Source: Burkholderia sp. BCC0322 (GTDB taxonomy: Bacteria; Pseudomonadota; Gammaproteobacteria; Burkholderiales; Burkholderiaceae). From it: a stretch of 64,000 nucleotides of DNA. Location of the stretch: positions 62,001 through 126,000 of the forward strand of contig NZ_CADFDU010000009.1 of the NCBI RefSeq assembly GCF_902833045.1, in the 5' to 3' direction. Under the pieces are notes generated by a model. That model was given only the letters and a program-made list of their open reading frames with translations, did no database searches and was not told where the DNA came from. Below, in pieces: positions 7,607-27,748 of this stretch (positions within the stretch are counted from its first letter, which is position 1; each line of letters begins with the position of its first letter). The position numbers and the translations under genes were made by a program.

Positions 7607-7635
7607 TACGGTGGCAGAGCGGGAACGGATGCAGT
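7607..7635 (-). promoter_or_regulatory. ECF-type promoter site, globin-like lipoprotein operon
   Basis: Minus-strand TGCATCCG (7635-7628) and CGTATC (7612-7607) are separated by the same distance as in six other sites of this window (16 nt between GCATCC and CGTA). It lies about 80 nt upstream of the lipoprotein ATG at 7525. It is back to back with the site for the divergent fasciclin gene. Confidence 0.75.
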
Positions 7636-7716
7636 GACGTTCGCGGATGGACGTGGTTTTCGATTCCGTTGCCCGCTCCTGGATCGCGGACCTGTCCGCG
7701 ATGAAGTGTTCAACCG

Positions 7717-7745
7717 TGCATCCGCCGTGCGGTTCGACTCGTATC
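7717..7745 (+). promoter_or_regulatory. ECF-type promoter site, fasciclin gene
   Basis: TGCATCCG (7717-7724) and CGTATC (7740-7745) with the invariant 16-nt spacing. Transcription would begin near 7752, about 40 nt before the ATG at 7791. Confidence 0.75.
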
Positions 7746-7790
7746 TCCGGGTGCTTCCAGCCAACAGCGGAAATCTTCCGGAGAACGAAC

Positions 7791-8375
7791 ATGAAATCTT
7801 TCAGCCAGGCAAAACTGGGTGGCGTGGCGCTCGCCCTCGCATTCGCAACGTGCAATTACGCGCCGGCCGCCGAGGCAGGATCCATGTCGATGGAGCAGAC
7901 GGTCGAGGTGGGCGGCGCTGCGATGTACCCGTCCAAGAACATCGTCGAAAACGCGATGAATTCTCACGATCACACGACACTGGTCGCAGCGGTCAAGGCA
8001 GGGGGGCTGGTCGACACATTGTCGAGCAACGGGCCATTCACGGTATTTGCACCGACCAACGAAGCGTTCGCCGCGTTGCCGGCCGGCACGGTGCAGACCT
8101 TATTGAAGCCGGAGAACAAGGCTGTGCTCGTCAAGGTGCTGACGTATCACGTCGTATCCGGACGACTCACGGCGCTCGACCTCGCCAAGGCGGTCGACCA
8201 AGGTGGCGGCAAGGCGACGCTGAAGACGGTCGAAGGCGATTCCCTGATCGTCAGCCGTGGCGCGAACGGGCTGGCCGTCACCGACGACAAGGGCAATGTC
8301 GCGCATGTCACGATCGGCGATGTCATGCAGTCCAATGGCGTGATTCACGTGGTCGACTCCGTGCTGATGCCCTGA
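7791..8375 (+). CDS. Secreted fasciclin (FAS1) domain protein
   Basis: A 194-residue exported protein: signal peptide at residues 1 to about 29 (hydrophobic core GGVALALAFAT), a short linker, and one FAS1 domain. The two conserved FAS1 blocks are visible: NGPFTVFAPTNEAFAALP and the late VIHVVDSVLMP, with LTYHVVSGRLTA between them (the YH motif). FAS1 proteins mediate adhesion or act as periplasmic/cell-surface ligand-binding modules. The ATG at 7791 has GGAGA 6 nt upstream; the longer open frame from 7647 runs through the promoter. Its promoter places it in the ECF regulon. FAS1 proteins near ECF sigma genes are seen in other proteobacteria, but the precise role here is unknown. Confidence 0.9.
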   Translation: MKSFSQAKLGGVALALAFATCNYAPAAEAGSMSMEQTVEVGGAAMYPSKNIVENAMNSHDHTTLVAAVKAGGLVDTLSSNGPFTVFAPTNEAFAALPAGTVQTLLKPENKAVLVKVLTYHVVSGRLTALDLAKAVDQGGGKATLKTVEGDSLIVSRGANGLAVTDDKGNVAHVTIGDVMQSNGVIHVVDSVLMP

Positions 8376-8401
8376 TACTTCAGCCAGTACCTGGCAGAAG
8401 G

Positions 8402-8465
8402 CGTGATGTGCGGCAGCAGGCCGCGCGTGCTTGCACATCACGTCGCCCCGTGTGTCGTCGGGGCG
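8402..8465. terminator. Two inverted repeats between convergent fasciclin and photolyase genes
   Basis: A perfect 10-bp inverted repeat (CGTGATGTGC at 8402-8411 with its complement at 8433-8442, 21-nt loop) is followed by a 6-bp GC hairpin (8444-8449 with 8460-8465). Neither has a T-run. Their place between two convergent genes suggests transcription termination or mRNA end stabilisation, but this is weak. Confidence 0.35.
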
Positions 8466-8579
8466 CCCCCGTCGCACGGTCGAGCCCGAATGTTCCAAGC
8501 GACGATTCGTGATTCGATCCCGGCGATCGACGCCGCGTTTTGCAGAAGCTGCCCGTACCTTCGCGATAGCGACCGGGCG

Positions 8580-10100
8580 TCACTTCCTTTCGCTCTGCAT
8601 ATTCAGGATCTCTACCGAGCTGAGCGCTCGCGCGCGTGCAAGCTGGTGATCCACAATCGGAAAGGGATAACTTGCGCCGAGTGTGATGGATGCTTGTTGC
8701 AGCTCGTCAGTGGAAGCGGTCCATGGGCTGTGGACGGTTTCGGCGGGAAGTGCGTATAGTTCGGGCACCCACCGCCGCGTGTATGTGCCTCTCGGATCGA
8801 ACTTTTTCCCCTGCAAAACAGGATTGAAGATTCGAAAATACGGGGCTGCGTCGGCGCCGCTTCCCGAAACCCATTGCCACCCGGCGGGATTGCTCGCCTC
8901 GTCCGCGTCAACCAGCGTATCCCAGAACCATGCTTCGCCCTCGCGCCAATCGATCAGCAAGTGCTTGGTGAGAAACGACGCTGTCACCATGCGCACGCGG
9001 TTGTGCATCCAACCGGTGTGCCAAAGCTCGCGCATGCCGGCGTCCACCAGCGGGTATCCCGTTTTCCCCATTTGCCACATGCGAAGCGCCTTTGCGTCGG
9101 TACGCCACGGCATGGCGTCAAACTGGCGCCGAAAATTGAACTGATGAAGGGGTTTGCAGTGATAGAGCAGGTAATACGAGAATTCTCTCCAGCCGAGTTC
9201 GCTAAAGAACTTGTTCAACGACTCGTTTTTAGCATCGTCAATGCGAACAATTCGCCTGCTTCGCATGGTGTCTACCGCTGATAACGTTGCGTACCACACT
9301 TGCCGGGCCGAGATATTTCCAAAGCGAAGATACGGAGAAAGCCGGCTCGTCGCTTGACTGGCCGGAAAATCTCGGGCGCCGGCATAATCGGAAAACGAGT
9401 TTTCAATGAAGGCCTCGAGTTGACGCCCGGCCGCTTCCTCGCCGCATCGCCAGGTCGCACGCAGACCCTCCGCCCAGTCCGGCGTCGAAGGCTGCAGTGC
9501 AAGCTCGGGAAGCGTACAGACGTGTGCGCTGACGCATTCGGAGACGGGAAAGAACGTGACCCGAGAGGGCGCCGGTAGTGGACACGGCGGAAAAAAATTG
9601 TCGCGGCGAGCGGCTCTCCAATACGCGCTGAATACCTGGAACGGCAAGCCTTCGCGCGTGGTGACTGTCCAAGGTTCCCGCAAGAGATGGCCATTGAAGG
9701 TTGACACGTCGATGCCGCGGCCGATCAGGTCTTGCTTGATCGACGCATCCGTTTCCATTTGCGCTTTCGCGTAGCGGCGATTCCAGAAAACCATCGCCGC
9801 CCGGGTCTCGATGGCGAGGCGCCTGATGGCTTCGTGTTCGTTGCCGCGAAGCACGATCAGCGAGCCACCGAGAGCGGAAAGCGACTCATCGAGTTTGCGC
9901 AGGGACTCGTGCAGCCACCACCGTTGCGCGCCCCCCATCGGACGCCCGAGCTTCGGGGCAGGGTCGTATACGTAGACGCAAACAACAGGATGGCCGGTAC
10001 TGACCGCATGAGAAAGTGAGGGATTGTCGCCGAGCCGTTGGTCATCCCGAAACCATACGATGACGGGGCGGGATTGATACGGCAGTTCGGAGCTTGTCAT
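8580..10100 (-). CDS. phrB: Deoxyribodipyrimidine photolyase, class I (CPD photolyase)
   Basis: A 506-residue flavoprotein that uses blue light to split cyclobutane pyrimidine dimers. The N-terminal Rossmann antenna domain begins PVIVWFRDDQRLGDNPSL. The C-terminal FAD domain is complete: TSRLSPYLRFGNIS, NKFFSELGWREFSYYLLYH, WQMGKTGYPLVDAGMRELWHTGWMHNRVRM, and NPAGWQWVSGSGADAAPYFRIFNP. These are the FAD-binding and DNA-lesion motifs of class I enzymes, with the photoreduction tryptophans in place. The ATG at 10100 starts just before the antenna domain; the open frame continues to 10211 and would overlap the upstream gene. It follows DUF2878 in one unit whose promoter site is at 11057-11085. 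Confidence 0.93.
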   Translation of the reverse strand: MTSSELPYQSRPVIVWFRDDQRLGDNPSLSHAVSTGHPVVCVYVYDPAPKLGRPMGGAQRWWLHESLRKLDESLSALGGSLIVLRGNEHEAIRRLAIETRAAMVFWNRRYAKAQMETDASIKQDLIGRGIDVSTFNGHLLREPWTVTTREGLPFQVFSAYWRAARRDNFFPPCPLPAPSRVTFFPVSECVSAHVCTLPELALQPSTPDWAEGLRATWRCGEEAAGRQLEAFIENSFSDYAGARDFPASQATSRLSPYLRFGNISARQVWYATLSAVDTMRSRRIVRIDDAKNESLNKFFSELGWREFSYYLLYHCKPLHQFNFRRQFDAMPWRTDAKALRMWQMGKTGYPLVDAGMRELWHTGWMHNRVRMVTASFLTKHLLIDWREGEAWFWDTLVDADEASNPAGWQWVSGSGADAAPYFRIFNPVLQGKKFDPRGTYTRRWVPELYALPAETVHSPWTASTDELQQASITLGASYPFPIVDHQLARARALSSVEILNMQSERK

Positions 10101-10191
10101 GTGCGTTGCCTGAGAAGGTGCGTTGGCAATTTGAACGGGATCGGAGATGAAGCTGGCCTGTGACGCTCCCGGCTCTATCGAGCCGATGTCA

Positions 10192-10809
10192 CTATCCGGC
10201 GCGGGCGTCATTCGTGCCGTCTTCGCCGATTGGCGGCGGAGATCGGGGTGTTACGCCATCCCAATGGCGCGCAATCGCAAGTGCGGCCGGCAAGACGAAC
10301 GCCCAGCCGGTTGCGACAACGACGAGCGCAGCAGCCGGATCTTTGAAATGAACGGCCCCCAGTGCCGCACCTGCGCGAAAGGACGCCGGGCCTGCGAATG
10401 CGCCGACGAGCGCCGAGATGAGCGGTCGCTCCCGGAGCCAGCGCAGCAAGGTATTGAGTTGAATCGCGAACAGCGCCCACAACCCCGCAAGCCAGTAAGG
10501 CGCCGTGCCTTTGAGCAACACGCCGTTCGGGTACACGAGCAGGCCGGAATGGGCAACGGCGCTGTCCAATAACCATCCGGACACCGTGACCGTGATGACG
10601 ATCCGCGCCTCGGATGAGGGTCGACGCGCGAAGAGAAGATGGCCGAGCGTCGCGATCAGCGCGTAGGCGACGCCCCACGCGGCGTGATGCGATGCGGCAG
10701 TCATCACGCATACCAGCCAGCCAATTTGGGTGGTCGCGAGATATACGCACACGCGAGCGGCGCCCGACTTTTGCATGCTCGACGTCAGCTGATTCGGAGC
10801 GCTTCTCAT
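10192..10809 (-). CDS. DUF2878 integral membrane protein
   Basis: A 205-residue polytopic inner-membrane protein of the DUF2878 family. Five or six hydrophobic segments are seen, with WLLDSAVAHSGLLVYPNG and APYWLAGLWALFAIQLN matching family-conserved stretches. The family is repeatedly found beside photolyase, CFA synthase and amine oxidase genes in light- or singlet-oxygen-response clusters; its biochemical role is not known. The start at 10809 puts the first helix near residue 15; an upstream in-frame ATG at 10992 would add about 60 arginine-rich residues without family similarity. Photolyase follows on the same strand. Confidence 0.78.
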   Translation of the reverse strand: MRSAPNQLTSSMQKSGAARVCVYLATTQIGWLVCVMTAASHHAAWGVAYALIATLGHLLFARRPSSEARIVITVTVSGWLLDSAVAHSGLLVYPNGVLLKGTAPYWLAGLWALFAIQLNTLLRWLRERPLISALVGAFAGPASFRAGAALGAVHFKDPAAALVVVATGWAFVLPAALAIARHWDGVTPRSPPPIGEDGTNDARAG

Positions 10810-11056
10810 GATCGTTCGCACGGGATCGGTAACGGCATGGTCGCGATGCCGCGTGCCTCGGCGGCGCACGTGGGTGCGCCGAGCAAGGCGATACGTCGCC
10901 GTCGACAACGAGCGAAATCGGTCCTGCCGCCACGTCGACGTTGCATCTCGGGGAAAGGGGCAGGTACAACATTCATGGCAGACGGCTCTCACTATCGTCG
11001 ACGAGCGTGCAGGGAGCGATCGTCGGCATTCCGCATCGATTCAACTATCTATTTCA

Positions 11057-11085
11057 CATACGACGCTGCACTGCGGACGGATGCA
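11057..11085 (-). promoter_or_regulatory. ECF-type promoter site, DUF2878-photolyase operon
   Basis: Minus-strand TGCATCCG (11085-11078) and CGTATG (11062-11057), spacing 16 nt as in the other sites. The leader to the preferred DUF2878 start would be about 240 nt, long compared with the other members. An upstream start at 10992 would shorten it to about 60 nt. Confidence 0.7.
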
Positions 11086-11362: not shown

Positions 11363-11391
11363 TGCATCCGCTTCCGCGCAAGTTCCGTAAA
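11363..11391 (+). promoter_or_regulatory. ECF-type promoter site, alpha/beta-hydrolase lipoprotein
   Basis: TGCATCCG (11363-11370) and CGTAAA (11386-11391) with 16-nt spacing. It is the only site of the seven with CGTAA instead of CGTAT. The gene starts about 50 nt downstream. Confidence 0.68.
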
Positions 11392-11442: not shown

Positions 11443-12402
11443 ATGAACATGAAAGCCGGACTGGTCGTCCTGTCGGTGCTGCTCGCGGCCGGTCTCCTCT
11501 CCGCGTGCAGCCCGGTGCGGCTCCTGAATGCGCTCGCGCCGAGCTACACGTTCAGTCTGTTCGCAGGTATCCCGTACGGATCCGGCGAGCGCCAGGTGCT
11601 CGACGTCTACTTGCCCACGCGTGTCCTGCACCATTGGCCGGCCGATGCGAGTGCGGGCGCCCCGGTGGTCGTGTTCTTCTACGGCGGAAGCTGGCAGTCC
11701 GGCGAGCGCAAGGATTATCTGTTCGTGGGAGAGGCGCTGGCGTCGCGGGGGTTTGTTGCCGTCTTGCCCGACTACAGGACGTACCCGGCGACCACCTTTC
11801 CCGGTTTCGTCGACGATGCAGCGCAGGCGGTGGCGTGGGCACGCGAGCACGCAGCCGCGTTCGGCGGCGATCCGCGTCGCCTGTTTCTGATGGGGCACTC
11901 CGCGGGCGCACAGATTGCCGCCTTGCTTGCGACCGACGGCCGCTATCTGGCCGCACAGGGGGTGCAGAAGAGCGATATCGCCGGCGTGATGGGGCTGGCC
12001 GGGGCTTATGATTTCCTGCCGCTGCGTGATGCCACGCTCGAAAGGATATTCCCGCAGGAAGCGCGTGCCGCGAGCCAGCCGATTCGATTCATTCAGGGTA
12101 CCGAGCCGCCGATGTGGCTGGCCATCGCGGAGAAGGACACGGTGGTCGAGCCCGGCAACACGTACCGCTTCGCGCGCGCGTTGCAAGCCATGGGCGATAG
12201 CGTCGTGGTCATGCGTTACAGGAACGTGAGTCACGCGTCGCTCGTCGGCGTTCTGGGCGCGCCGTTGAGAGGGGTGGCGTCAGTGCTAGACGACCTCTCC
12301 GCGTTCGTGGATCGTGTCGCGAACGCGTCGAATGCCGGAACCACGCGCAGGCAGCCGACATCGCCTGCCGCCGTGGCTCGTTCTTCGGATTGGGTTCAGT
12401 GA
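11443..12402 (+). CDS. Alpha/beta-hydrolase (carboxylesterase-type) lipoprotein
   Basis: A 319-residue lipoprotein: signal with lipobox LLSAC (Cys22), then an alpha/beta-hydrolase fold. VVFFYGGSW is the oxyanion-hole loop (equivalent to HGGxW), MGHSAGAQ is the nucleophile elbow with the catalytic serine, the acid is likely in IAEKDTVV, and the histidine in NVSHASLVG. This arrangement fits small-molecule esterases or lipases of the BD-FAE/HSL group acting in the periplasm or on the outer membrane. The ATG at 11443 has GGAGAG upstream; longer in-frame starts run through the promoter site. As a regulon member it could trim modified or peroxidised acyl chains, but that is inference. Confidence 0.82.
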   Translation: MNMKAGLVVLSVLLAAGLLSACSPVRLLNALAPSYTFSLFAGIPYGSGERQVLDVYLPTRVLHHWPADASAGAPVVVFFYGGSWQSGERKDYLFVGEALASRGFVAVLPDYRTYPATTFPGFVDDAAQAVAWAREHAAAFGGDPRRLFLMGHSAGAQIAALLATDGRYLAAQGVQKSDIAGVMGLAGAYDFLPLRDATLERIFPQEARAASQPIRFIQGTEPPMWLAIAEKDTVVEPGNTYRFARALQAMGDSVVVMRYRNVSHASLVGVLGAPLRGVASVLDDLSAFVDRVANASNAGTTRRQPTSPAAVARSSDWVQ

Positions 12403-12626: not shown

Positions 12627-13598
12627 CTACAGCGCCTTCAGCTCCGGCGTCGTTCCGCCCAATCCCTCTTCGCGAAGAATGACGGCGAGCGCCGTCTCGA
12701 GCAATTCGGCTGCGCGGTTCGCCGCGTCTCCAAGGTGGCGATGCAGCAGCGCATCGGCCGGCGATCGCGACACGCATTCGTCGCTGTATCGCTCGAACGC
12801 ACCGAGCTGCATGATCAATTCGGAGAGATGACGCGGACATTCGCATTTGACGGTGGTGGACAGGCCGCTGAGCGACGCGAGCGTCGCTTCGTCGAAGCGT
12901 CGCCGCGTGCGCAGCCAAAGCCCGCGATCCGCGTCATTCGACTGGCGCGACTTGACGACGGCTTGCGCCAGTCTCGAAATGATGGATATCGGATTGGTCT
13001 GGCCTTCCGTCGACCGGAACAGCTCGAACCCCGACAGACGCGCCAGCTCGACCGCCTCTGCCGTGCCGAACGCGTACACGACGGCCACGGCGTGCGCGTT
13101 GAGCTTTTGCGCCACGTCAGCGAGCTGCGACACGACATCCTCATGGAGCGACGTGGTCGTCGCGATGAGGGCGTCGGCTGACGTACCCGCATGCGCGCCC
13201 GCGTCGTCAATCGAGTCGATTCGTGCGGCGACCTGGATGCCCATTCGCTCTATCGCGGATTCCGGAATCGAAAGCGCGCCGATGACCGCGAGGCGCACAC
13301 TTGACTCGGGAAACGCCGGGTCACGCGTGTTCGTCAACGACAACGCCTCGAGTTCCTCGCGGCCCAGGCTGGCGATCGAGCCGATCGCGTGGCCCTGATT
13401 GACGAGCGTTTTCAGCAAACGAATTCGCTGTACGTCGTCGTCCGAGTACAGCCGTTGTCCGGACGGCGTTTTGGGCGGAGCAACCACGCCATAGCGCCTT
13501 TCCCAGATCCTCAGCGTGGCTGCCGGCATGCGCGCCAGGCGCGCGGCCTCGCCGCTGCGATAGCGATGAGGCGTATCGCGATCCTTGCGAGGGGGCAT
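12627..13598 (-). CDS. litR: MerR/LitR-family light-response regulator (class III LitR-like)
   Basis: A 323-residue regulator. The N-terminal MerR helix-turn-helix is complete: YRSGEAARLARMPAATLRIWERRY, then TPSGQRLYSDDDVQRIRLL. The C-terminal half follows the layout of LitR/CarH effector domains, but I do not see the cobalamin-binding DxHxxG motif. It instead has a Cys-rich segment (KCECPRH) plus a later YSDEC. This fits LitR homologues lacking B12 ligands that occur in Burkholderia and Pseudomonas. It is divergent from an iron-sulfur photolyase gene. Its promoter shares a 46-bp element with the second LitR-like gene. It probably controls light-induced transcription of neighbouring genes, perhaps through an ECF sigma. 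Confidence 0.82.
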   Translation of the reverse strand: MPPRKDRDTPHRYRSGEAARLARMPAATLRIWERRYGVVAPPKTPSGQRLYSDDDVQRIRLLKTLVNQGHAIGSIASLGREELEALSLTNTRDPAFPESSVRLAVIGALSIPESAIERMGIQVAARIDSIDDAGAHAGTSADALIATTTSLHEDVVSQLADVAQKLNAHAVAVVYAFGTAEAVELARLSGFELFRSTEGQTNPISIISRLAQAVVKSRQSNDADRGLWLRTRRRFDEATLASLSGLSTTVKCECPRHLSELIMQLGAFERYSDECVSRSPADALLHRHLGDAANRAAELLETALAVILREEGLGGTTPELKAL

Positions 13599-14058
13599 CG
13601 TTGCTCTCCTAAAGTCGACGTACTGTTGTCTCAGGATTGTACGCAGTTTGCCTGAAATATGAAGCAGGAAAGTGATTCAACATGCGGATTTTCGTCCGGA
13701 AAGGTGGTTCGCGAAGCGCGAGCCGGCTAGAATGCTTCGGCGCGGTACCGCCCGGTGTCGCGGGGTCGGTCAGGACGCGCGCGGTGCCGGGCGTCGGGAG
13801 GGGCAAGGTGTTTCGTTCGACGCGTGATGACGCGGGCGTTTCCAGGCAGCGCCGTCGCCGTTGGCGTCGTGCCTCACCTGGGGGCGCGGTCGGCCGGGAG
13901 GGCAGTTGGCTGCGTTGTCATGCTGGCCGCCGGCGCAGCCGACAGACGGGTGAGCGTGGTCGTGGTGCGGCGACCGATTCGAATGCGGGGTGTGCCGCGA
14001 AGTGGCGATGCAGGTGTCTCGACAACCCGGGCGGCGATCATCAACCGCGAAACGTCCC
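13599..14058. promoter_or_regulatory. Divergent intergenic region between litR and the iron-sulfur photolyase
   Basis: No gene is supported in this 460-nt gap; frames here are arginine-rich shadows. The litR end carries the shared promoter element (13634-13679). No ECF-type TGCATCCG site is present, so the photolyase here seems to be under separate, probably LitR, control. Confidence 0.55.
13634..13679 (-). promoter_or_regulatory. Conserved 46-bp litR promoter element (copy A)
   Basis: This stretch aligns without gaps to 18740-18785 with 35 of 46 identical positions. On the minus strand it has a TACAAT -10 (13641-13636), a 17-nt spacer and a poor -35 (CTTCAT). A TGAA-N12-TTCA inverted repeat (13660-13679) overlaps the -35. 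A poor -35 under an inverted repeat is typical of regulator-dependent promoters. The predicted leader is about 30 nt. Confidence 0.65.
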
Positions 14059-18705: not shown

Positions 18706-19308
18706 GGGGCCTCCCTCGGTCGATTCATGCGTCACAGCTGGATTGTATGCAAATTTTCCGGAAAGTGAAGCGGAAAAGTGATTCATGGAATAATTTGTAC
18801 CGGAAGTTTGTGCGTCAAGTGTCGCGACGGCACCGGAAAATCGCGTTTCCAGCACGTGAGTGCTCATTCCTGCAAAGGGGTTGCGTGTTTTGAATGCATA
18901 TGAAACGACTTTTGAGGTCAATGGGCTGGCGGCCAAGCTATGTCAAGGTGGGCCGGGAAGTGCGCCGGAAGAAGCGCGATTTCGATGCATGTATCGAGCG
19001 TGTCGCACATTTGCGTGTCGATGTGGCGGAATCCGGCCCGTGGCCGTTCGCGCCAGCGAACATGACCGGGCTTTCACGCCAGCGTCGTGACGCTGAGACG
19101 GGGTGGAGTGAACCGCCTGGAGGCAACCGGGCATGCTGCGATCCAGACGGCCGCGGGGAAGGGGGAGGGCCGCCCTGACGAGCGCGCCTGCGCGCACCGG
19201 TGCCGATCGATCCCGGTGAACCGAAACAGGGGCGAGCATGCCGTCCCGGCCCGATCGAAGCGCTATCCGGGCCCGCGCGCTGCTCGCGACCGGCTCATCG
19301 ATGCGAAG
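18706..19308. other. Gene-poor stretch upstream of the LitR-like gene
   Basis: Apart from promoter element B at its left end I find nothing convincing in these 603 nt. A 94-codon plus-strand frame (18894-19178) has no ribosome-binding site and no family match. The sequence left of about 18900 is AT-richer than its surroundings. Confidence 0.45.
18740..18785 (-). promoter_or_regulatory. Conserved 46-bp litR promoter element (copy B)
   Basis: Gap-free match to 13634-13679 (35 of 46 identical). It has TACAAT (18747-18742), a 17-nt spacer, a poor -35 (CTTCAC), and the TGAA-N12-TTCA inverted repeat at 18766-18785 (18 of 20 bp identical to copy A). The predicted leader is again about 30 nt to the GTG at 18705. 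It would drive the LitR-like gene, folE and the orphan sigma. Confidence 0.65.
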
Positions 19309-20106: not shown

Positions 20107-20107
20107 G

Positions 20108-21325
20108 TCAGCCGCCCGACGACACGATGAAATGCATCACGTCGGTCCGCCGCTCGGCGAATCCCGCTTCGCAATAGGCGAGATAGAGGCGCCAGGTGCG
20201 AATGAACGTCTCGTCGAACCGTTGCGCGCGCACCGAGTCGATGCGTGCCTCGAACGTGGCCCGCCACGTGCGCAGCGTGCGCGCGTAGTCGTCGCCAAAC
20301 GCGAGCACCGGTTCGGCGGCCAGGCCGGCCCGCCGCGCGGCATCGACGAAGCGCTCCGGGCTCGGCAGCATCCCGCCGGGAAAGATGAACTCGCGAATGA
20401 AGTCGCTTGACGTGCGGTACGCGTCGAACAGCGACTCGATGATCGTGATCGATTGAACCAGCGCGCGAGCCCCGGGCTTCAGGCGCTGCCTGAGCGTGTC
20501 GAAGTACACCGGCCAGTATGTTTCGCCCACGGCCTCGAACATCTCGATCGACACGATCGCGTCGTATTGGCCGTCGACGTCGCGATAGTCGCGCAATTCG
20601 AGCGTGACGCGATCGGACAGCCCGTCGCGCGCAACGCGCTCGCGAGCCAGCGCGTATTGCGCCTGCGAGAGGGTGACGCCATGCACGCGGATGCCTTGCC
20701 GTGCGGCATGCAACGCGAACCCGCCCCAGCCGCAGCCGATCTCGAGCACGCGCATGCCGGCGCGCAGGCCGAGCGAATCGACGATGCGCTGATACTTTGC
20801 CGTTTGCGCGTCGGCGAGCGAACGCTGCGCGTCGCCGTCGAAGCATGCGCTCGAATACGTCCACGTGTCGTCGAGCCACAACCCGTAAAAGTCGTTGCCG
20901 AGATCGTAGTGCGCGTGGATGTTGCGGCGGCTGCCGGCCCGCGTATTCATCCTCAGCCGGTGACGCAGCGCGTACCAGACGCGTGCCAGGCGGCCGCCGG
21001 TAACCGTCTTCGCGATCACCGGCTGGTTGCGGATCGCGAGGCGCAGCAGCGCGACGAGCTCGGGCGTGTCGATCCAGCCGGCGCGATACGCTTCCGCGAA
21101 GCCGATGTCGCCCGCGCGCAGGATCGCACGGCACGCCCGCCAGTCGCGGACCTGCAGCGTCGCGGCCGGCTGGCAGTGCGGATCGCCGAACACATGCTGC
21201 GCGCCTTCGGGCGTCACGAGCGTCAGGTGACCGTCGTGGATTTGCCGTAGCAACGCGATGAACCACCGGGCCGAGAGCGGCATCGCCGGTTGCGATGCGG
21301 GAGACAGCAGGCGCAGCAAGGTCAT
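20108..21325 (-). CDS. Cyclopropane-fatty-acyl-phospholipid synthase (CFA synthase 1)
   Basis: A 405-residue SAM-dependent methyltransferase acting on unsaturated acyl chains of membrane phospholipids. NIHAHYDLGNDFYGLWLDDT, the SAM site MRVLEIGCGWGGFALHAA, SIEMFEAVGETYWPVYF and FIREFIFPGGMLPSPERF are the diagnostic CFA synthase blocks. The N-terminal 100 residues form the lipid-binding part. The ATG at 21325 overlaps the DUF1365 stop by 4 nt. With the second CFA-type enzyme nearby it suggests either distinct substrates or successive steps. Confidence 0.92.
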   Translation of the reverse strand: MTLLRLLSPASQPAMPLSARWFIALLRQIHDGHLTLVTPEGAQHVFGDPHCQPAATLQVRDWRACRAILRAGDIGFAEAYRAGWIDTPELVALLRLAIRNQPVIAKTVTGGRLARVWYALRHRLRMNTRAGSRRNIHAHYDLGNDFYGLWLDDTWTYSSACFDGDAQRSLADAQTAKYQRIVDSLGLRAGMRVLEIGCGWGGFALHAARQGIRVHGVTLSQAQYALARERVARDGLSDRVTLELRDYRDVDGQYDAIVSIEMFEAVGETYWPVYFDTLRQRLKPGARALVQSITIIESLFDAYRTSSDFIREFIFPGGMLPSPERFVDAARRAGLAAEPVLAFGDDYARTLRTWRATFEARIDSVRAQRFDETFIRTWRLYLAYCEAGFAERRTDVMHFIVSSGG

Positions 21326-22176
21326 GGACGAGCCTCGTGATCGGACATCGCCGAGCGGCCGCGTGGCGACGCGCCCGGCGAACGGGACAATGGCGAATCG
21401 GCAGCGGCAGCTCGGCCGGGGGGCGTCTTGCCGTGGAACGGCACGCGCGCGAGCCACAGCCGCAGCGCTTGCCAATGAATGCGAATGACGACGTTGACCG
21501 CGTTCAGCGGCTGCCGGGCCAGCGCGCGCCACGCGCGTGCCGCTGTCAGCGGCGCGGACCGCATGCCGATGGCCGTGCGCAGCAGCAGGCCTTCGTCGTC
21601 GCGATAGTCGATCGCCACGCTCAGATGATCGCCGCGCTGACGCACGCGAAACGCGTATTCCCCGACGATGTCGCAAAACGGCGAGATATGAAACGTCTTG
21701 CGGCAGACGAGCACGGTGTCGGCGTCGATCGGCGCATGGCGCATCGCGCTCAGCAGGTAGCCGTGGTGCGCACCGAACGTGTTGCGCACCTCGGCGTACA
21801 GCGCGCGCAGCCGGCCCGCGCGGTCGTAGCAGTACCAGAAGCTCACCGGGTTGAACGCGTAGCCGAAGATGCGCGGGATCGTTTGCAGCCAGATCGGGCC
21901 GTCGGCGGGAATGCCGGCGTGCGCGAGGACATCGCGCATCCACGGGCCGAGCGCGCGGCCGTCGCGCGGGCCGTAGTCGCGGCAAGCGAGCGCGAGCGGG
22001 GCCCGGCGATCGATGCCGAACCAGCCGGCGTCGATCTCGTCCAGCCGCTCGACGTCGCAGCACACCTGGAATAGCGGGTACGCGAACGCATGGCGCACCG
22101 GCCGCAGCCGTTCGTGCATCACGGTGCCGACGAGCAGCCGGGCGGCCGTGCCGTCGCGGGCGAAGGGCGCGTTCAT
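21322..22176 (-). CDS. DUF1365 family protein
   Basis: A 284-residue soluble protein of DUF1365. Family motifs are LLVGTVMHERLRPVRHAFAYP at the start, IPRIFGYAFNPVSFWYCYD, and KTFHISPFCDIVGEYAFRVR. Its activity is unknown; it nearly always sits between the FAD amine oxidase and the CFA synthase. Both junctions here overlap by 4 nt (ATGA type), so the three products are probably made in equal amounts and may form a complex. The C-terminal 30 residues are Pro/Ser/Arg-rich and probably disordered. Confidence 0.9.
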   Translation of the reverse strand: MNAPFARDGTAARLLVGTVMHERLRPVRHAFAYPLFQVCCDVERLDEIDAGWFGIDRRAPLALACRDYGPRDGRALGPWMRDVLAHAGIPADGPIWLQTIPRIFGYAFNPVSFWYCYDRAGRLRALYAEVRNTFGAHHGYLLSAMRHAPIDADTVLVCRKTFHISPFCDIVGEYAFRVRQRGDHLSVAIDYRDDEGLLLRTAIGMRSAPLTAARAWRALARQPLNAVNVVIRIHWQALRLWLARVPFHGKTPPGRAAAADSPLSRSPGASPRGRSAMSDHEARP

Positions 22177-23477
22177 GGGCGAGCCCAGGCCGGCGCGACG
22201 CCGAAGCTGCTGGCGACGCGCAACGCCGATTTCAGTCCATCCTCATGGAACCCGTAGCCCGTCCACGCGCCCGCAAACCACGTATTGCGCCGCCCTTGCA
22301 GCATCGGCAGGCGATGCTGCGCATCCACGGCCGCGAGGTCGAGCAGCGGGTGCTCGTAATCGTAGCGGCCGAGCTGGGTGTCGGGCGCGGGCGCGTCGAC
22401 CGGATTCAACGTGACGACGACCGGCGAGCGGAACGGCAGCGGCTGCAACTGGTTGAGCAGGTAGCTCACGCACACGGGCGATTCGCCGCCGTTGCGCCTC
22501 GGCCGCCCGCCCAGGTAGTTCCACGCCGACCACACGCGCCGCCGACGCGGCAGCAACGCCGTATCGGTATGAAGCACCGCGACGTTGTGCTGGTAGCGCA
22601 CGGCGCCGAGCACGTCGCGCTCGGCGTTGCTGGCATCCGCGAGCAGCCGCAGGCTGGTCGGCGCATGGCACGCGAGCACGACCGCGTCGAAGCGCTCTTG
22701 ACCGGCCGTGTCGGTCGCCACCGTCACGCCCGCGTCGTCGCGCCGTATCGCGCGGACCGGCGTATTCACGCGCACGTCGTCGAGCGTCGCGGCGATGCGC
22801 TCGACGTACTGCCGCGCGCCGCCCGCGACGGTGCGCCAGGTCGGCCGGTTGTTGACCTGCAACAACGCGTGATTCAGGCAGAAGCGCAGGAACGTCGCCG
22901 CCGGAAACCGCAGGATGTCGTTGGCCGCGCTCGACCAGATCGCGGCCGCCATCGGCAGCAGGTAGTGATGCTGGAACGATGCGCCGTAGCCGCCGGCCGT
23001 GAGCAGTTCCCCGACCGAAAGACGCTCCCGGCTCGCCGATTCGAGGTGATCTTGCGCGGACGCGTTGAAGCGCAGGATGTCGCGCAACATCCCGAGGAAG
23101 GTCGGCGAGAACAGGTTGCGGCGTTGCGCGAACACTGTGTTCAGGTTGCTGCCGGCCCATTCGAGCCGGCCGCCGTCGACCGACACCGAAAACGACATGT
23201 CGGTCGAATGGGCGGCCACGCCCAGTTCGTCGAACAATGCGATCAGGTTCGGATAGGTCCGGTCGTTGAACACGAGGAAGCCCGTGTCGACGGGGTGGCG
23301 TGCGCCGTCGAGCTCGACGTCGACCGTGTGCGTGTGGCCGCCGAGATAGTCGGCGGCCTCGAACAGCGTCACGCGGTGACGGCGGGCCAGCAAGTACGCA
23401 CTGGCCAGGCCCGCGATGCCGGCGCCGACGACGGCGATCCGCCGGCCGGGCAGCGACATGGAAAGTTCCGGGTGCAT
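22173..23477 (-). CDS. FAD-dependent amine oxidase-family oxidoreductase, light/singlet-oxygen cluster type
   Basis: A 434-residue flavoprotein. The dinucleotide site IAVVGAGIAGLASAYLLARR is at residues about 13-33, with the family signature GHTHTVD and VDTGFLVFNDRTYPNL after it. The C-terminal FAD motif is NTWFAGAWTGYGFHEDGLKSA. This subfamily is always next to DUF1365 and CFA synthase genes. In Rhodobacter a related flavoprotein acts as a fatty-acid desaturase in furan fatty acid synthesis, so the substrate here may be an acyl chain rather than an amine. It is the first gene of its unit, about 50 nt behind an ECF-type promoter. Confidence 0.88.
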   Translation of the reverse strand: MHPELSMSLPGRRIAVVGAGIAGLASAYLLARRHRVTLFEAADYLGGHTHTVDVELDGARHPVDTGFLVFNDRTYPNLIALFDELGVAAHSTDMSFSVSVDGGRLEWAGSNLNTVFAQRRNLFSPTFLGMLRDILRFNASAQDHLESASRERLSVGELLTAGGYGASFQHHYLLPMAAAIWSSAANDILRFPAATFLRFCLNHALLQVNNRPTWRTVAGGARQYVERIAATLDDVRVNTPVRAIRRDDAGVTVATDTAGQERFDAVVLACHAPTSLRLLADASNAERDVLGAVRYQHNVAVLHTDTALLPRRRRVWSAWNYLGGRPRRNGGESPVCVSYLLNQLQPLPFRSPVVVTLNPVDAPAPDTQLGRYDYEHPLLDLAAVDAQHRLPMLQGRRNTWFAGAWTGYGFHEDGLKSALRVASSFGVAPAWARP

Positions 23478-23530: not shown

Positions 23531-23559
23531 TATACGACGCACCGCGCGCGGCGGATGCA
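23531..23559 (-). promoter_or_regulatory. ECF-type promoter site, amine oxidase-DUF1365-CFA operon
   Basis: Minus-strand TGCATCCG (23559-23552) and CGTATA (23536-23531) with 16-nt spacing. The ATG at 23477 follows after about 50 nt of leader. It lies in the 92-nt gap after the lipocalin gene, so this operon can be transcribed independently of the upstream one. Confidence 0.78.
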
Positions 23560-23569
23560 GGTGCGGCCG

Positions 23570-24190
23570 TCATTCGCGATCGCCGGGCGACGCGAAGCCC
23601 GGCTTGCCGATCTGGTCCGGTGTTTGCGGCACCCGCCTGAAGCGCGACGTGTCGTAACCCATCGCATCGAGCCGGGCGAGCAGCGAGCGATAGGTGGCCT
23701 CGTCCATCGTCGGCTCGCGCGAGAAGATCCAGCCGAGCGTCTTGCCCGGGTAGCCGAGGATCGTGTACCGGTAGTCGGGGTCGACGTAGAGCGTCAGTTG
23801 CGTGACATACACCGGCCAGAACAGCCGCACGCGCCATTCGCCCCCGCCGCTGCCGGGCTTGACGGAGTCGACGAACCGATAGTGCTGCTCGGGCTGGTCG
23901 AAGCCGCCCTTGCGGCCGGCGAAGGCGTCGTCGATCCGGCCGTCGTCGCGCAGGCGCCATTCGGCCCGGCTGCCGACGAAGTTGCGTTCCGCGAAATACG
24001 GGATATTGGCGATCACGTACCAGCGGCCCATGTAGCGCGGCAAGTCGACGGGGACGGTCGACAGCGGAACGGCGGCGCGCGGATTCGGGTTCGGCGGGCT
24101 GCCCGAGCACCCGGCGGCCCCGATCGCGAGCGCCGTCACGACCGTGACGGCGACGCGGCGGACGACCCGGTACGGGATCGCGGCCCTCAT
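23570..24190 (-). CDS. Lipocalin family lipoprotein (Blc-like)
   Basis: A 206-residue lipoprotein. The signal ends in a lipobox-like GAAGC (Cys28). The lipocalin pattern is complete: [20 protein letters not shown] (first strand GxW), [11 protein letters not shown], and [20 protein letters not shown]. Bacterial lipocalins bind fatty acids or lysophospholipids at the outer membrane and are induced by envelope stress. The start overlaps the stop of the CFA-type methyltransferase by 4 nt. A second lipocalin gene lies at 27833-28402. Confidence 0.9.
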
Positions 24191-25287
24191 GCGAGACCCC
24201 GGCGCTTGTCGAACAGATAGTGGGCGACGCCCCATTCCTGCCCGTCGGCATGGCCGAACAGCTCGGCGACCGCCATGTAGAACATCCGCCAGCGCTGGAA
24301 CCAGATGCGGGCGTCGGCGCCGTAGACCGTCTCGAAGATCGGCATGATCCGGTGACGCGCCGCGTCGAGCGACGCGAGCCACTGATTGGCCGTGCGGGCG
24401 TAGTGAGTGCCGTCGAGCCACCATTGGCGGGTGACGCGCAGGTCGTCCTGGAACCGCAGCAGCAGGTCGGCCGACGGCATCGTCCCGCCCGTGAAGAAAT
24501 GGCGCGACATCCAGTCGGTGTCGTCGCGCACCGCGAAGTGATAGGCGAGCAGCTTGTGCGCGAAGATGTGCACGAAGAGCTTGCCGTCGTCGTGCATCCA
24601 GCGCGCGATTTTCGCGAGCAGTTGCCCGTAGTTCTTCATGTGCTCGAACATCTCGATCGAGAGCACGCGGTCGAAACCGGCGTCCGCGGGATCGAAGTCG
24701 AACTCCACCACGTTGCCGGTCACGATGCGCAGGTTCGTCAGCCCGCGCTGCGCCGCGCGTTGCTCGATGAAGTGGCGTTGACCGTGCGAATTCGACAGGC
24801 CGACGATCTGCGCCGCCGGATACCGCTCGGCGAGCCAGAGCGACAGCGAACCCCAGCCGCACCCGAGGTCGAGCATGCGCTGGCCGTCCGCCAGCCTGGC
24901 GCGCTGCGCGTACAGCGCCAGCATGGCCTCCTCTGCCTGCGACAGCGTTTCGTCGCCGCGCGGGTAATAGCCGCACGAGTATTTGAGCCGCGGGCCGAGA
25001 TGGGCCTCGAAGAAGCTGCCGGGCACCTCGTAATGCTGCGTGTTCGCCGCGAGCGTCTCGATGGCGATCGGGCTCGCGCCCAGCTCGCGCACCACCGTGT
25101 CGTGGGCCGCCGCGCGCTGTTCGGCGTCATACGCGTGTTCGGCGCGCAGGCGTTGCCGCATGAGCGAGCGCATGCCGGCCCGGATCAGCCGGTCCGGCAG
25201 CCAGCCGCGCTCGCAGCAGCGAATCAGCCAGGAGTCGTTGGGTGCCGCCACCGAGGCCGGCGACGGTTGCGAGGTGGTAGCGGTCAT
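24187..25287 (-). CDS. CFA-synthase-like SAM methyltransferase (second copy)
   Basis: A 366-residue class I methyltransferase of the CFA family but divergent from the first copy. The SAM site is [40 protein letters not shown] replaces the usual CFA N-terminal block, and [19 protein letters not shown] follows. The C-terminus has [17 protein letters not shown], typical of the subgroup found in ECF/light clusters. It could methylate a diene fatty acid intermediate as UfaM does in Rhodobacter, but that is a hypothesis. Start and stop overlap both neighbours by 4 nt. Confidence 0.88.
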
Positions 25288-26117
25288 GATCGCGTGCTCC
25301 GGTCTTCAGGGTGATCGGATCGAGTGGGGGAAGGGCTGGGCGTCGGCCTCGGCGGCCACGGAACGATGGCGCTGGTCGTGCGCAGGTACTCGCGGTAGCC
25401 CGGCCGGGTTTGCACCAGACGCGCTTCGAGCAGCGGCAAGCCGGATACCTTGAGCAGCAGCCATGCCATCAGGAAGGGCGGTATCAGCGTCAGCCAGCCC
25501 CACGGCATGCCGATCGCCAGGGCCGTGTAGGCGAGCCAGTGCACGCACTCGAAAAAATAGTTGGGGTGCCGCGAATAGCGCCACCAGCCGGCGCGACAGA
25601 CCTGGCCGGCGTGGCCGGGATCCGCGAGAAACCGCTTGAGTTGCCGGTCGGCGGCGGTCTCTCCGGCGACGGCGGCGATCCAGATCGCGACTGCCGCCGC
25701 AATCGCGAACCGGGACGGGGCTGCCGTGCTGTATGCGGGGATGAAGAACGCGAGCGAAAGCAGCATCGAGATCAGCGCTTGCAACTGGAACAGCCAGAAC
25801 ATGTTGCGCGGCGCGGCGTCGCCCCACTGCAGGCGGAACTGTCGATAGCGCGGGTCCTCCGGCTGCCCGCGATTGCGCCGCCACAGGTGCCGCGCGAGTC
25901 GCAGCCCCCAGATGCCGCCGCCGGCGGCGACGAGCGCACGGTTCAATTCCGGGCCGGTAGCCAGCACGGCGACGAACACGGCGACGCCGCCGAGCGTCGC
26001 GGCCCAGACCGGATCGATCATCCCGGCGTTCCGGGAACGCAACTGGGCAATCCACACGGCCGTGAAGGACACGATCAGTCCGACGAAGGCGAGGAGGGCA
26101 ACGACGACGGCGGGCAT
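25284..26117 (-). CDS. DUF1295 family integral membrane protein
   Basis: A 277-residue protein with about seven hydrophobic helices, related to steroid 5-alpha-reductase/isoprenylcysteine methyltransferase-type membrane enzymes. Family motifs are [40 protein letters not shown], and [13 protein letters not shown]-like [20 protein letters not shown]. The last resembles the cofactor region of these reductases. The ATG at 26117 starts the first helix directly. The frame extends 85 codons upstream, through the promoter, with no family features. Substrate unknown; a lipid is likely from context. Confidence 0.85.
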
Positions 26118-26144
26118 ACGGGCTCCGGGGACGCGATATCCCCT

Positions 26145-26173
26145 TATACGGAGCCGGCGACCGACCGGATGCA
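26145..26173 (-). promoter_or_regulatory. ECF-type promoter site, DUF1295-CFA2-lipocalin operon
   Basis: Minus-strand TGCATCCG (26173-26166) and CGTATA (26150-26145), spacing 16 nt. The start codon at 26117 follows after about 20 nt. The site separates this operon from the sigma/anti-sigma pair. Confidence 0.78.
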
Positions 26174-26268
26174 ACCGGATGCGGCGAAATGCGGCGTGAT
26201 CCCGTCGAGAGAGCCAGCAACGGGCGGCACGCCGCCGCGTTTCGTGCGTGGAGCGCGCGTTGCGCGCG

Positions 26269-27000
26269 TCAAGCGGTGTGCATCGCGCCGGTGGCGAGCA
26301 CTGGCCCGGTGGGTTGGCCGCTCGGCGAGCCGCCGCGAGGCTCGAGCGATACGGCGAGCACCGCGCGCGCATCGAGTCGCGCGACGATCGCTTGCGGCAG
26401 CGTCATCGACGCCGGTGCGTTCGACGCGAATACGCCGAGCGAGATCGGCTTCGCGTTCGGCGGAATCAGCCAGAGCTCCGTCGAGCGATCCGCGGCGATC
26501 GGTGGCGTGTTCGCGGGCACCACGACCATCCGGGCACGCCGCAAGTCGACCGTCGCGGTCCACCGTGCGACGCCATCCGCTTGTGCGAGCGTGGCCGCCA
26601 TGTAGCGGCTGTCCTCGGCAGCGGGGCGCGGCGGCGCTTCGTCCACCCGGATCACGTTGACCGTGAGCAGCCCCAGCGCCGCCGCGCTCGCGCCGATGCC
26701 GACCCAGCGCCACAGTCGCAGGCTGTTCCACCATCCGGCGGATGGCGCAGCGCTGCTTGCGCGCGGCGGGATGAAGCCCAACTGGTGCTGGATCCTCGTC
26801 CAGGTTCGCGCGGGCGGGTCGACGGGCGTGATGTCGTCCGCGAGCGCGGCGAGGCGGCGCTGCCAGCGCTCGAGCGTGGCTTGCAACGCCGGGTCGCGAG
26901 CGGCGGACTGCTCCAGCTCGCGGCGCGCGTCAGCGTCGAGCACGCCGAGCGCGTATTCTGCGCAGCGCAATTCGGGATTGTGATCGGCCGGCGTATTCAT
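26269..27000 (-). CDS. Anti-sigma factor, RskA-like membrane protein
   Basis: A 243-residue single-pass membrane protein. The N-terminal cytoplasmic part reads LRCAEYALGVLDADARRELE, the usual RskA-type sigma-binding start, without a zinc H-x3-C-x2-C motif. A membrane helix lies near residues 100-120 (WVGIGASAAALGLLTVNVI). The periplasmic domain has TVDLRRARMVVVPANTPP and STELWLIPPNAKPISLG, the RskA C-terminal pattern. The ATG at 27000 overlaps the sigma stop by 4 nt. It should hold the sigma factor inactive until an envelope or oxidative signal triggers release. It differs from the zinc-cupin ChrR protein of Rhodobacter, so the sensing step may differ. Confidence 0.87.
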   Translation of the reverse strand: MNTPADHNPELRCAEYALGVLDADARRELEQSAARDPALQATLERWQRRLAALADDITPVDPPARTWTRIQHQLGFIPPRASSAAPSAGWWNSLRLWRWVGIGASAAALGLLTVNVIRVDEAPPRPAAEDSRYMAATLAQADGVARWTATVDLRRARMVVVPANTPPIAADRSTELWLIPPNAKPISLGVFASNAPASMTLPQAIVARLDARAVLAVSLEPRGGSPSGQPTGPVLATGAMHTA

Positions 27001-27608
27001 TGCTCCAGGCACACCTTCAGCTGCATCAGGCTGCGCCGGATCCAGCTCTTCATGGTTCCGAGCGGCACACGCAGTCGCGCTGCCAGCTCACTGTAGGTCG
27101 CGCCGCTGAAGAAGGCCTCGCGCACCGCGCGGCCCTGCTGCGGATCGAGTTGCGCGAGGCAGTGCTCGAGGCGCAGGCGCTCCTGCGAGGCCTCCGCCAG
27201 CGCGGCGGGCGTCGGATCTTCGGCGGGAAGCGCCAGCGCCTGTTCGTCGTCGAGTTGCGCGTCGCGATGCTGCCGCAAGCGGTCGATCGTCTTGTTGCGC
27301 GCCAGCGTGATCAGCCACGTCATCGCGCCGCCGCGTGCCGGGTCGAACGCGTCGATGCGTCGCCATGCGGTCGTGTAGACCTCCTGGAGGAGATCCTCGG
27401 CTTCCCCGTGATCGTGAAGCATGCGCACGATTGTCCCGAACACCCGCGACGCGGTCAGCCGGTACAACTCCGCGAAAGCAGCCTGATCGCCGGCTGCCGC
27501 CTGAAGCATCACCCGATTCAGATGTTCGCGGCGCGCGACATCCGCTTCGGCATCGCGCGAAGGGGCCGACTGATCGAAGCCGCTGGCACCGCTTGGCGTG
27601 TCGCTCAT
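26997..27608 (-). CDS. ECF RNA polymerase sigma factor, autoregulated master of the cluster
   Basis: A 203-residue sigma factor with region 2 (AFAELYRLTASRVFGTIVRM, EAEDLLQEVYTTAWRRIDAF, AMTWLITLARNKTIDRLRQH) and region 4 (REAFFSGATYSELAARLRVP, GTMKSWIRRSLMQLKVCLEQ). It is encoded directly before its anti-sigma. The ATG at 27608 starts just before a 30-residue lead; the longer open frame upstream is arginine-rich and crosses the promoter. A TGCATCCG-N15-CGTA site lies upstream of this gene, as it does before six other units in the window. The simplest reading is that this sigma recognises that sequence and drives its own gene. Confidence 0.92.
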   Translation of the reverse strand: MSDTPSGASGFDQSAPSRDAEADVARREHLNRVMLQAAAGDQAAFAELYRLTASRVFGTIVRMLHDHGEAEDLLQEVYTTAWRRIDAFDPARGGAMTWLITLARNKTIDRLRQHRDAQLDDEQALALPAEDPTPAALAEASQERLRLEHCLAQLDPQQGRAVREAFFSGATYSELAARLRVPLGTMKSWIRRSLMQLKVCLEQ

Positions 27609-27719
27609 GCGAAGTGGATGGCGCGGATCGCCATGATGTGGATGTCGAGCGAAATATAGCACTCTCGGATGCATCTGATTGAGCGATCGACGGCGCGCCC
27701 GCTGTGAAATCTTCAACCA

Positions 27720-27748
27720 GATACGAGCGACTCGTCCGCGCGGATGCA
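27720..27748 (-). promoter_or_regulatory. ECF-type promoter site, sigma/anti-sigma operon
   Basis: Minus-strand TGCATCCG (27748-27741) and CGTATC (27725-27720), spacing 16 nt, about 105 nt upstream of the sigma ATG. Positive autoregulation is the expected arrangement for ECF systems. Confidence 0.78.

Follow-up and report, generated by a model that had tools for sequence, protein, structure and literature searches.

The question raised by a stretch of Burkholderia sp. BCC0322 DNA (NCBI RefSeq assembly GCF_902833045.1, contig NZ_CADFDU010000009.1, positions 62,001 to 126,000; hereafter the window, 64,000 nucleotides (nt) in all) is which regulators read seven copies of a two-part motif that precede, among others, genes for a sigma factor of the extracytoplasmic function (ECF) type and a DNA photolyase, and which signals these genes follow. 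We consider it probable that the seven sites are promoters of a SigK-type (ECF18/ECF19) sigma factor and that they define a local regulon against photooxidative damage with two inputs, one through the sigma factor Sig1 and its anti-sigma factor RskA, the other through the regulator LitR and a second sigma factor, Sig2. The promoter class, taken apart from the two inputs, is strongly supported by sequence comparison.

The pattern TGCATCCG-N15-CGTA has seven exact matches in the window, with the same spacing and orientation at all of them, against a mean of 0.02 and a maximum of 1 in 100 dinucleotide shuffles. A first-pass annotation of the window had reported these seven sites with identical spacing, and they are present as described:

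7606-7633 (27-mer 7607-7633), minus strand: exact match before the lipoprotein gene 6836-7525 (CGTAT)
7717-7744 (27-mer 7717-7743), plus strand: exact match before the fasciclin gene
11058-11085 (27-mer 11059-11085), minus strand: exact match before the DUF2878-photolyase unit
11363-11390 (27-mer 11363-11389), plus strand: exact match before the esterase gene (CGTAA)
23532-23559 (27-mer 23533-23559), minus strand: exact match before the amine oxidase-DUF1365-CMAS unit
26146-26173 (27-mer 26147-26173), minus strand: exact match before the DUF1295-CMAS-lipocalin unit
27721-27748 (27-mer 27722-27748), minus strand: exact match before sig1-rskA (autoregulation)

The base after CGTA is T at six sites and A at one (11363, esterase). 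Counted from the 28-base site to the start codon, the distance is 80 nt for the lipoprotein, 46 for fasciclin, 52 for the esterase, 54 for the amine oxidase, 28 for DUF1295 and 112 for the sigma gene; for DUF2878 it is 65 nt if the GTG at 10992 is the start and larger with a later one. The earlier placement of the sites upstream of gene starts in the correct direction therefore stands at 28-112 nt, except that the distance of about 240 nt given for DUF2878 had assumed the later start; the 29-base coordinates given there stand for six sites, and for the first TGCATCCG ends at 7633, not 7635. With 16 copies in the window against 10.75 expected, the half-site TGCATCC by itself is not rare, so the information resides in the pair at fixed spacing; the copy at 42619 (minus strand), previously left uncounted, indeed has no partner element.

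Comparison across the genus establishes that the sites are conserved and that they are local. In an upstream test that was not conditioned on the presence of the motif, up to 350 nt upstream of the seven unit heads, and of twelve further genes in the cluster, were taken from nine genomes, and the best match to the 13 fixed bases was recorded. At most one mismatch was found in 50 of 51 unit-head regions, whereas none of the 100 control regions (operon-internal genes together with litR, litR2, folE, sig2, dprp and blc) came within two. The sole exception is the 'sig1' entry of B. pseudomultivorans (genome G009), which is actually Sig2, this genome being without Sig1. Three heads are absent from some of the nine genomes (fasciclin in three, lipoprotein in five, DUF2878 in seven), and two head sites, those of sig1 in G054 and fasciclin in G022, miss the looser pattern TGCATC[CT]-N16-CGTA by one base each. 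Conservation computed on sites found through the motif (0.98 in the -35 box, 0.98 in the -10 box, 0.71 in the spacer, 0.60-0.62 in the flanks) is biased by that way of finding them, and for this reason the unconditioned test was used instead.

The nearest named locus is that of Burkholderia ambifaria RZ2MS16, whose Sig1 is 96% identical; in its genome of 8.1 Mb the strict pattern occurs seven times, all inside 21.6 kb, and the reversed pattern not at all. All 12 genomes of the first genome search contained the strict pattern (3 to 8 copies each, 51 in total, against 5 in total for the reversed pattern), and among 65 genomes of the genus it occurs 142 times in 55 (reversed pattern, 8 times). 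The sigma factor is encoded in 23 of the 65 (expectation value, E, 1e-40), and 64 of the 142 sites lie within 30 kb of it, where 0.25 would be expected from the density elsewhere; 21 of the 23 sigma genomes have at least one site within this distance. The sites farther off in sigma genomes number 28 (1.22 per genome), against 50 in the 42 sigma-less genomes (1.19 per genome), a background that is slightly overstated because two of the 28 (G039 C2:2302917 and G026 C3:2073245) precede lipocalin among regulon homologues adjoining litR. The 12-base pattern TGCATCC-N16-CGTAT gave 43 matches in nine whole genomes, 40 of them in the cluster and one each outside it in G022, G023 and G054, with none for the reversed control. 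Two of the checks that the first-pass annotation had proposed, a search for the same sites before orthologous genes in related Burkholderia and a whole-genome motif search, thus bear out its claim of an ECF-type promoter set that includes the sigma factor's own promoter and is concentrated near the sigma gene, with a far-site rate equal to that of sigma-less genomes.

The first of the two sigma factors is encoded together with its anti-sigma factor:

26997-27608, minus strand: Sig1, SigK-like ECF sigma factor with both conserved cysteines (C150, C200)
26269-27000, minus strand: RskA-type anti-sigma factor (PF10099, NF052375), overlapping the sigma stop codon

The only Pfam match of the anti-sigma factor is RskA_C (PF10099, 84.2 bits, cut-off 29.4), and a PDB search with it returned nothing at E 0.1. 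The best PDB match of Sig1 is SigK (4nqw, E 1e-33), with whose cysteines, residues 133 and 183 of Mycobacterium tuberculosis SigK, C150 and C200 align. Membership of the ECF11 group (RpoE-ChrR) was ruled out: the anti-sigma factor matches RskA_C and not a ChrR-type zinc/cupin protein, and the -35 element is TGCATCC, not TGATC. Before sig1, at 27640-27673, there is also a second TGCATCCG that lacks CGTA at the expected distance; the TGCTATATT after it looks like the extended -10 of a sigma70 promoter. The arrangement recurs in G001 and G054, and the element could be a housekeeping promoter for sig1.

The sigma factor at 26997-27608 had been named earlier as the likely reader of the sites. This is probably right and it is incomplete, because G009 has only the second sigma factor yet keeps sites; a second SigK-like sigma factor may also read the motif, and the link to LitR had been overlooked. 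The gene inventory made then had in fact missed three genes, namely the sigma gene 16232-16936, the LitR-type MerR gene 12627-13598 and a LitR paralogue lacking the helix-turn-helix at 17920-18705, all on the minus strand. The second sigma factor is the following:

16232-16936, minus strand: Sig2, SigK-like ECF sigma factor without adjacent anti-sigma factor, conserved cysteines replaced by Gly and Tyr

Sig2 is 66% identical to Sig1 over 174 residues and has the same best PDB match (4nqw, E 2e-28). Typing by cysteines and neighbours separates the two across 101 sigma sequences, in which three genomes appear twice (as L001/G001, L002/G002 and L033/G009), and from which a 24-residue fragment (L060) and a divergent sigma factor (L022_7675) were set aside. 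Ten rows, from the window and eight genomes, are of Sig2 type, with Gly where Sig1 has C150 and Tyr where it has C200; the remaining 89 have both cysteines, and 88 of these have an RskA-like neighbour, the exception (L057) lying at a contig end. Within the genus, the 31 sigma copies of the 23 genomes divide into 22 of Sig1 type, with both cysteines and an RskA neighbour, and nine of Sig2 type, with Gly/Tyr and no RskA-like neighbour; both occur in eight genomes, Sig2 alone in G009 and Sig1 alone in fourteen. An iterated profile search of the window and nine genomes found no RskA-like frame of at least 120 residues on the same strand within 1.3 kb downstream of Sig2, which rules out a nearby anti-sigma factor of this kind, RskA-like genes elsewhere and unrelated anti-sigma factors not having been looked for; in G002 and G054 there are no more than about 170-230 nt between Sig2 and the next regulon gene. 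A tree built from 97 rows, after removal of short and duplicate ones, places all Sig2 rows in a single clade (100/100; stem 0.35) nested among Burkholderiaceae sigma factors, where its companions are two Pandoraea rows and one Burkholderiales row (98/92).

The candidate link between Sig2 and a further input is a promoter box that two transcription units of the cluster have in common:

12627-13598, minus strand: LitR, MerR/CarH-type regulator without recognised B12-binding domain, class III LitR-like (PF13411)
17920-18705, minus strand: LitR2, LitR paralogue without recognisable MerR helix-turn-helix
13636-13679, minus strand: box TGAATCACTTTCCTGCTTCATATTTCAGGCAAACTGCGTACAAT at the litR promoter, proposed LitR operator overlapping a sigma70-like promoter
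18742-18785, minus strand: box TGAATCACTTTTCCGCTTCACTTTCCGGAAAATTTGCATACAAT at the litR2-folE-sig2 promoter

LitR matches the CarH helix-turn-helix (E 6e-8), and its only Pfam matches are of MerR type; its predicted fold is of low confidence (mean predicted local distance difference test 61.6), and the best Foldseek match, again CarH (E 2e-4, template-modelling score 0.2), lends weak support. We call it class III-like because it combines a MerR/CarH-type helix-turn-helix with the lack of a recognised B12-binding domain, as class III LitR of Burkholderia is described in the available parts of PMC9758184 and PMC6739363. LitR2 diverges more quickly than its paralogue: compared with the window, its identity in eight genomes is 47-90%, that of LitR in these genomes 87-95%. 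It is possibly a partner or decoy of LitR. Two more LitR-like pieces (84% and 70% identity) lie about 12 kb from litR in G009 (C12:63106-63703).

The litR and litR2-folE-sig2 promoters share a 44-base block, TGAATCrCttTyCyGCTTCa...TACAAT, inside which their cross-identity in the window and eight genomes is 0.70, against 0.31 and 0.34 in the flanks. The box pattern TGANTCRYNTTYYYGCTTCNNNTT occurs 17 times in the nine Sig2 genomes, every time at a litR or litR2 promoter (once in G054, whose litR2 box is one base off), and its reversed control not at all; the pattern was drawn from these boxes, so only its absence elsewhere in these genomes informs. It occurs once more before litR of G039 and is absent from G026 and G071. 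LitR itself is found at 86-95% identity in exactly the nine Sig2 genomes and at 66-72% in G039, G026 and G071, which are without Sig2, with no match at E 1e-30 in the other 53. No SigK-type site was found within 350 nt upstream of litR or litR2 in nine genomes. From the box and from this co-occurrence we infer that LitR binds the box and controls Sig2, and that litR2-folE-sig2 is probably one transcript.

The mechanism that we consider most likely can be put together from these parts. Oxidants or envelope damage would release the autoregulated Sig1 from membrane-bound RskA. In the dark LitR would keep litR2-folE-sig2 off, and light would relieve this repression and yield Sig2 without an anti-sigma factor. 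Either holoenzyme would then initiate at TGCATCC...CGTAT and express photolyase, the UfaD/UfaO/UfaM-like (furan or methyl fatty acid) set, lipocalin, fasciclin, lipoprotein and esterase, products that would repair DNA (photolyase) and alter membrane lipids. FolE may supply pterin for the folate cofactors of photolyase. The signals, by analogy with other organisms, would be light and singlet oxygen. A bolder reading, which we hold about as likely as its negation, is that two SigK sigma factors serve one promoter set, one gated by redox state through RskA, the other free of an anti-sigma factor and of the conserved cysteines and gated only by transcription under a class III LitR, whose direct targets in these genomes, judged by the box, would be no more than its own gene and the sigma operon; LitR2, a copy of LitR without a DNA-binding domain made from that operon, would tune the switch.

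The genes concerned, apart from those already listed, are these:

6836-7525, minus strand: lipoprotein-like protein, unit head, followed by 6147-6848; no Pfam or NCBIfam match, P. bannensis homologues preceded by the motif
6147-6848, minus strand: hypothetical protein downstream of the lipoprotein
7791-8375, plus strand: fasciclin (FAS1) domain protein of the MPT70/MPT83 family (PF02469; PDB 1w7d and 1nyo, MPT70, among its matches)
10192-10992, minus strand: DUF2878 protein, start codon uncertain (PF11086)
8580-10211, minus strand: DNA photolyase (PF00875, PF03441)
11443-12402, plus strand: alpha/beta-hydrolase esterase (PF20434/PF07859)
14059-15588, plus strand: photolyase-related protein (DPRP; PF04244 on 13990-15588), no SigK-type site upstream, used as a control gene
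17053-17784, minus strand: FolE, GTP cyclohydrolase I (PF01227)
20108-21241, minus strand: CMAS-type fatty-acid methyltransferase, UfaM-like by family (PF02353)
21322-22176, minus strand: DUF1365 protein, the domain family of UfaO (PF07103; PMC7380195, available part)
22173-23477, minus strand: amine oxidase/desaturase-like protein dependent on flavin adenine dinucleotide (FAD), UfaD-like by family (PF01593)
23570-24190, minus strand: lipocalin (PF08212)
24187-25287, minus strand: second CMAS-type methyltransferase (PF02353)
25284-26117, minus strand: DUF1295 protein (PF06966)

The units headed by a site are DUF1295-CMAS-lipocalin (26117 to 23570), amine oxidase-DUF1365-CMAS (23477 to 20108), DUF2878-photolyase, fasciclin, the lipoprotein pair, the esterase and sig1-rskA; between them lie litR, the photolyase-related gene and litR2-folE-sig2 (18705 to 16232), and a chalcone-isomerase-like protein is encoded downstream of the amine oxidase-DUF1365-CMAS unit. 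A CMAS methylase (PF02353), a desaturase binding FAD or nicotinamide adenine dinucleotide (NAD; PF01593) and a DUF1365 protein (PF07103) are encoded together in 20108-23477, the gene combination that characterises furan-fatty-acid synthesis. The lipoprotein 6836-7525 had been called globin-like, an identity that is not supported, no family of Pfam or NCBIfam matching it at E 0.001. In G054, from which no fasciclin gene was recovered in the region fetched, the photolyase has shrunk to a small piece (L120:18358-18507) and the lipoprotein retains its site. By eye, 5600-6140 at the edge of the cluster resembles the remains of a transposase gene, and 15590-16231 resembles a deletion scar, with the end piece of an FAD-dependent oxidoreductase and a fragment like a succinate dehydrogenase membrane subunit; the matching region holds a long oxidoreductase open frame and other genes in G001 and apparent sdh genes in G009.

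Sites away from the sigma contig, found by pattern alone, serve as an independent test. In Pandoraea they precede fasciclin, esterase and lipocalin (3 of 3 in G004, 3 of 3 in G005). P. bannensis has eight strict sites, four of them as tandem pairs before two lipoprotein homologues (83-86% identical) and two in the sigma locus, so that 4 of the 6 away from the sigma contig precede regulon homologues; its lipoprotein locus is in two copies (L141:6863-7237 and L142:6890-7267), each with two tandem sites about 350 nt apart. A wider survey covered 79 loci, with TGCATC[CT] in the motif and 300 nt upstream of the homologues. The motif preceded 15 of 19 fasciclin, 12 of 26 DUF1295, 11 of 34 amine oxidase, 13 of 78 sigma, 5 of 33 CMAS1, 1 of 2 esterase, 1 of 17 lipocalin and 1 of 26 CMAS2 homologues, and none of those of photolyase (6), DUF2878 (2), the anti-sigma factor (71) or DUF1365 (34); the reversed motif was never found. 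TGATCC-N16-CGTA, tried at the N16 spacing only, had one match in each of 3 of the 79 loci. Either the site set is not universal in distant genera or the sites there are more degenerate.

The explanation that competes best with a photooxidative signal, a minority prospect in our judgement, is that any envelope or lipid damage, and not light, is sensed, the regulon being a SigK-RskA response to envelope stress in general, in which photolyase is a passenger. The composition of the set fits this, as a membrane anti-sigma factor, lipocalin, lipoproteins and fatty-acid enzymes dominate it, as does the survey, where no photolyase homologue carried the motif; the stimuli of mycobacterial SigK-RskA are moreover called obscure in the available part of PMC9861118. 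What speaks for light is that photolyase, FolE, LitR and the photolyase-related protein cluster here, and that similar target sets respond to singlet oxygen or blue light elsewhere (PMC7074977, PMC5241685, both in part).

An unlikely alternative to two inputs is that only Sig1-RskA reads the seven sites, Sig2 directing other promoters or decaying, and LitR acting on a separate set. It draws on the site at sig1's own promoter, to which nothing corresponds within 350 nt upstream of sig2 in nine genomes, on the motif at the sigma promoter in some Sig1-type loci of other genera, and on the long stem branch of Sig2 (0.35). On the other side, the Sig2 frame is open, without stops, in all nine carrier genomes and is located between regulon units; no residue of the region 4 segment VPLGTMKSWIRRSLM differs among Sig1, Sig2 and a Rhodanobacter sigma factor; and G009, without Sig1, keeps sites at DUF1295, amine oxidase, esterase and DUF2878. 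From the last two points we infer that both sigma factors read the same promoters.

That the motif is the operator of a transcription factor and not a sigma promoter is very improbable; conservation alone cannot separate the two, but in the window the motif consists of two short asymmetric blocks at fixed spacing, in sense direction and 28-112 nt before starts, it co-occurs with an ECF sigma gene and is present at the promoter of that gene, and Vibrio cholerae sigmaE uses the similar TGATC-N16-18-CGTAW (PMC5241685, in part). Chance or a repeat artefact, for which no supporting point was found, has a negligible probability and is ruled out by the shuffles, the locality, the conservation across genomes and the reversed controls.

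Several observations weigh against a two-input SigK regulon as we propose it. Sig1 scores 161 bits against the NCBIfam SigK model, whose cut-off is 226 and which is only its third-best model. Genomes G038 and G039 contain the sigma factor and no strict site within 30 kb; two of the eight strict sites of P. bannensis (C56 and C81) are surrounded by 6.5-7 kb in which no regulon homologue occurs; and in the 79 loci the motif is missing at 65 of 78 sigma, 23 of 34 amine oxidase, 28 of 33 CMAS1 and all 6 photolyase homologues. Reading of the motif by Sig2 is argued from similarity and from one genome, G009, whose DUF1295 site is altered at position 8, and sig2, as noted, has no SigK-type site of its own. 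The presence of TGANTCRYNTTYYYGCTTCNNNTT at the two promoters holds by construction, the light or oxidant signal is borrowed from other organisms, and the case as a whole is one of sequence comparison.

The cluster offers a compact and testable SigK-RskA regulon for Gram-negative bacteria, one that points to photooxidative stress, and it suggests a route by which class III LitR may reach its targets, namely a sigma paralogue free of an anti-sigma factor. A shared promoter set would allow both inputs to be measured on one group of genes; Sig2, having lost the cysteines and the anti-sigma factor in nature, provides a ready experiment on the role of the SigK cysteine pair. In a literature search that consisted mostly of titles and the beginnings of abstracts, and that excluded the 2018 study of class III LitR in B. 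multivorans, which may cover part of it, nothing was recognised as describing this Burkholderia regulon. As far as that search shows, both the Burkholderia promoter set and its proposed use by two SigK factors, one guarded, the other unguarded and tied to LitR, are new.

SigK-RskA systems are known in Actinobacteria and Yersinia, with M. tuberculosis (ECF18) and Yersinia enterocolitica (ECF19) as examples (PMC7509140, in part). The Burkholderia system is like them in that Sig1 is closest to SigK in the PDB, the anti-sigma factor is of RskA type, the two cysteines align, fasciclin is a target and the locus is autoregulated. The sigK locus of M. tuberculosis also carries DUF1295, CMAS, DUF1365 and amine-oxidase genes. 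The Burkholderia system differs in having photolyase and lipocalin in its set and a second SigK paralogue behind a promoter box that litR shares. In Nocardia, a cysteine-less SigK occurs with a truncated RskA and is reported to be active without RskA activation (PMC7509140, in part). Sig2 is likewise a SigK without the two cysteines, but where the Nocardia species described keep an RskA remnant of about 81 residues, Sig2 has no adjacent RskA, and 8 of the 9 genomes that carry it also have an intact SigK-RskA pair.

The target set is comparable to that of the singlet-oxygen RpoE-ChrR system (ECF11) of Rhodobacter sphaeroides, whose regulon includes photolyase, CfaS, RSP_1090/1091 (UfaO/UfaD), fasciclin and folE2 (PMC7074977, PMC6852236, in part). 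The anti-sigma factors differ, ChrR being a zinc protein and that of Burkholderia of RskA type, as do the -35 elements, TGCATCC against TGATC in the related V. cholerae motif; RpoE-ChrR of R. capsulatus is reported to resemble SigK-RskA more than R. sphaeroides RpoE-ChrR does (PMC7074977, in part). In R. sphaeroides, UfaM, UfaO and UfaD make furan fatty acids (PMC7380195, in part). The CMAS, DUF1365 and FAD/NAD-binding desaturase-like proteins of the window are likened to them at the level of family. In Streptomyces coelicolor an ECF sigma factor reportedly directs light-dependent transcription, under the names LitR and LitS. Light raises the fasciclin genes mpk83 and mpk70 of Mycobacterium kansasii, which have putative SigK sites (PMC9861118, in part). 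The blue-light response of V. cholerae depends jointly on an ECF pair and on a MerR regulator encoded next to a photolyase gene; unlike the arrangement proposed here, the MerR regulator is, in the available part of that account, not tied to a second sigma factor, and the anti-sigma factor is ChrR (PMC5241685). LitR of the window has a counterpart within its own genus, the class III LitR of B. multivorans, which in the partial description available has the same MerR/CarH-like helix-turn-helix without a B12 domain.

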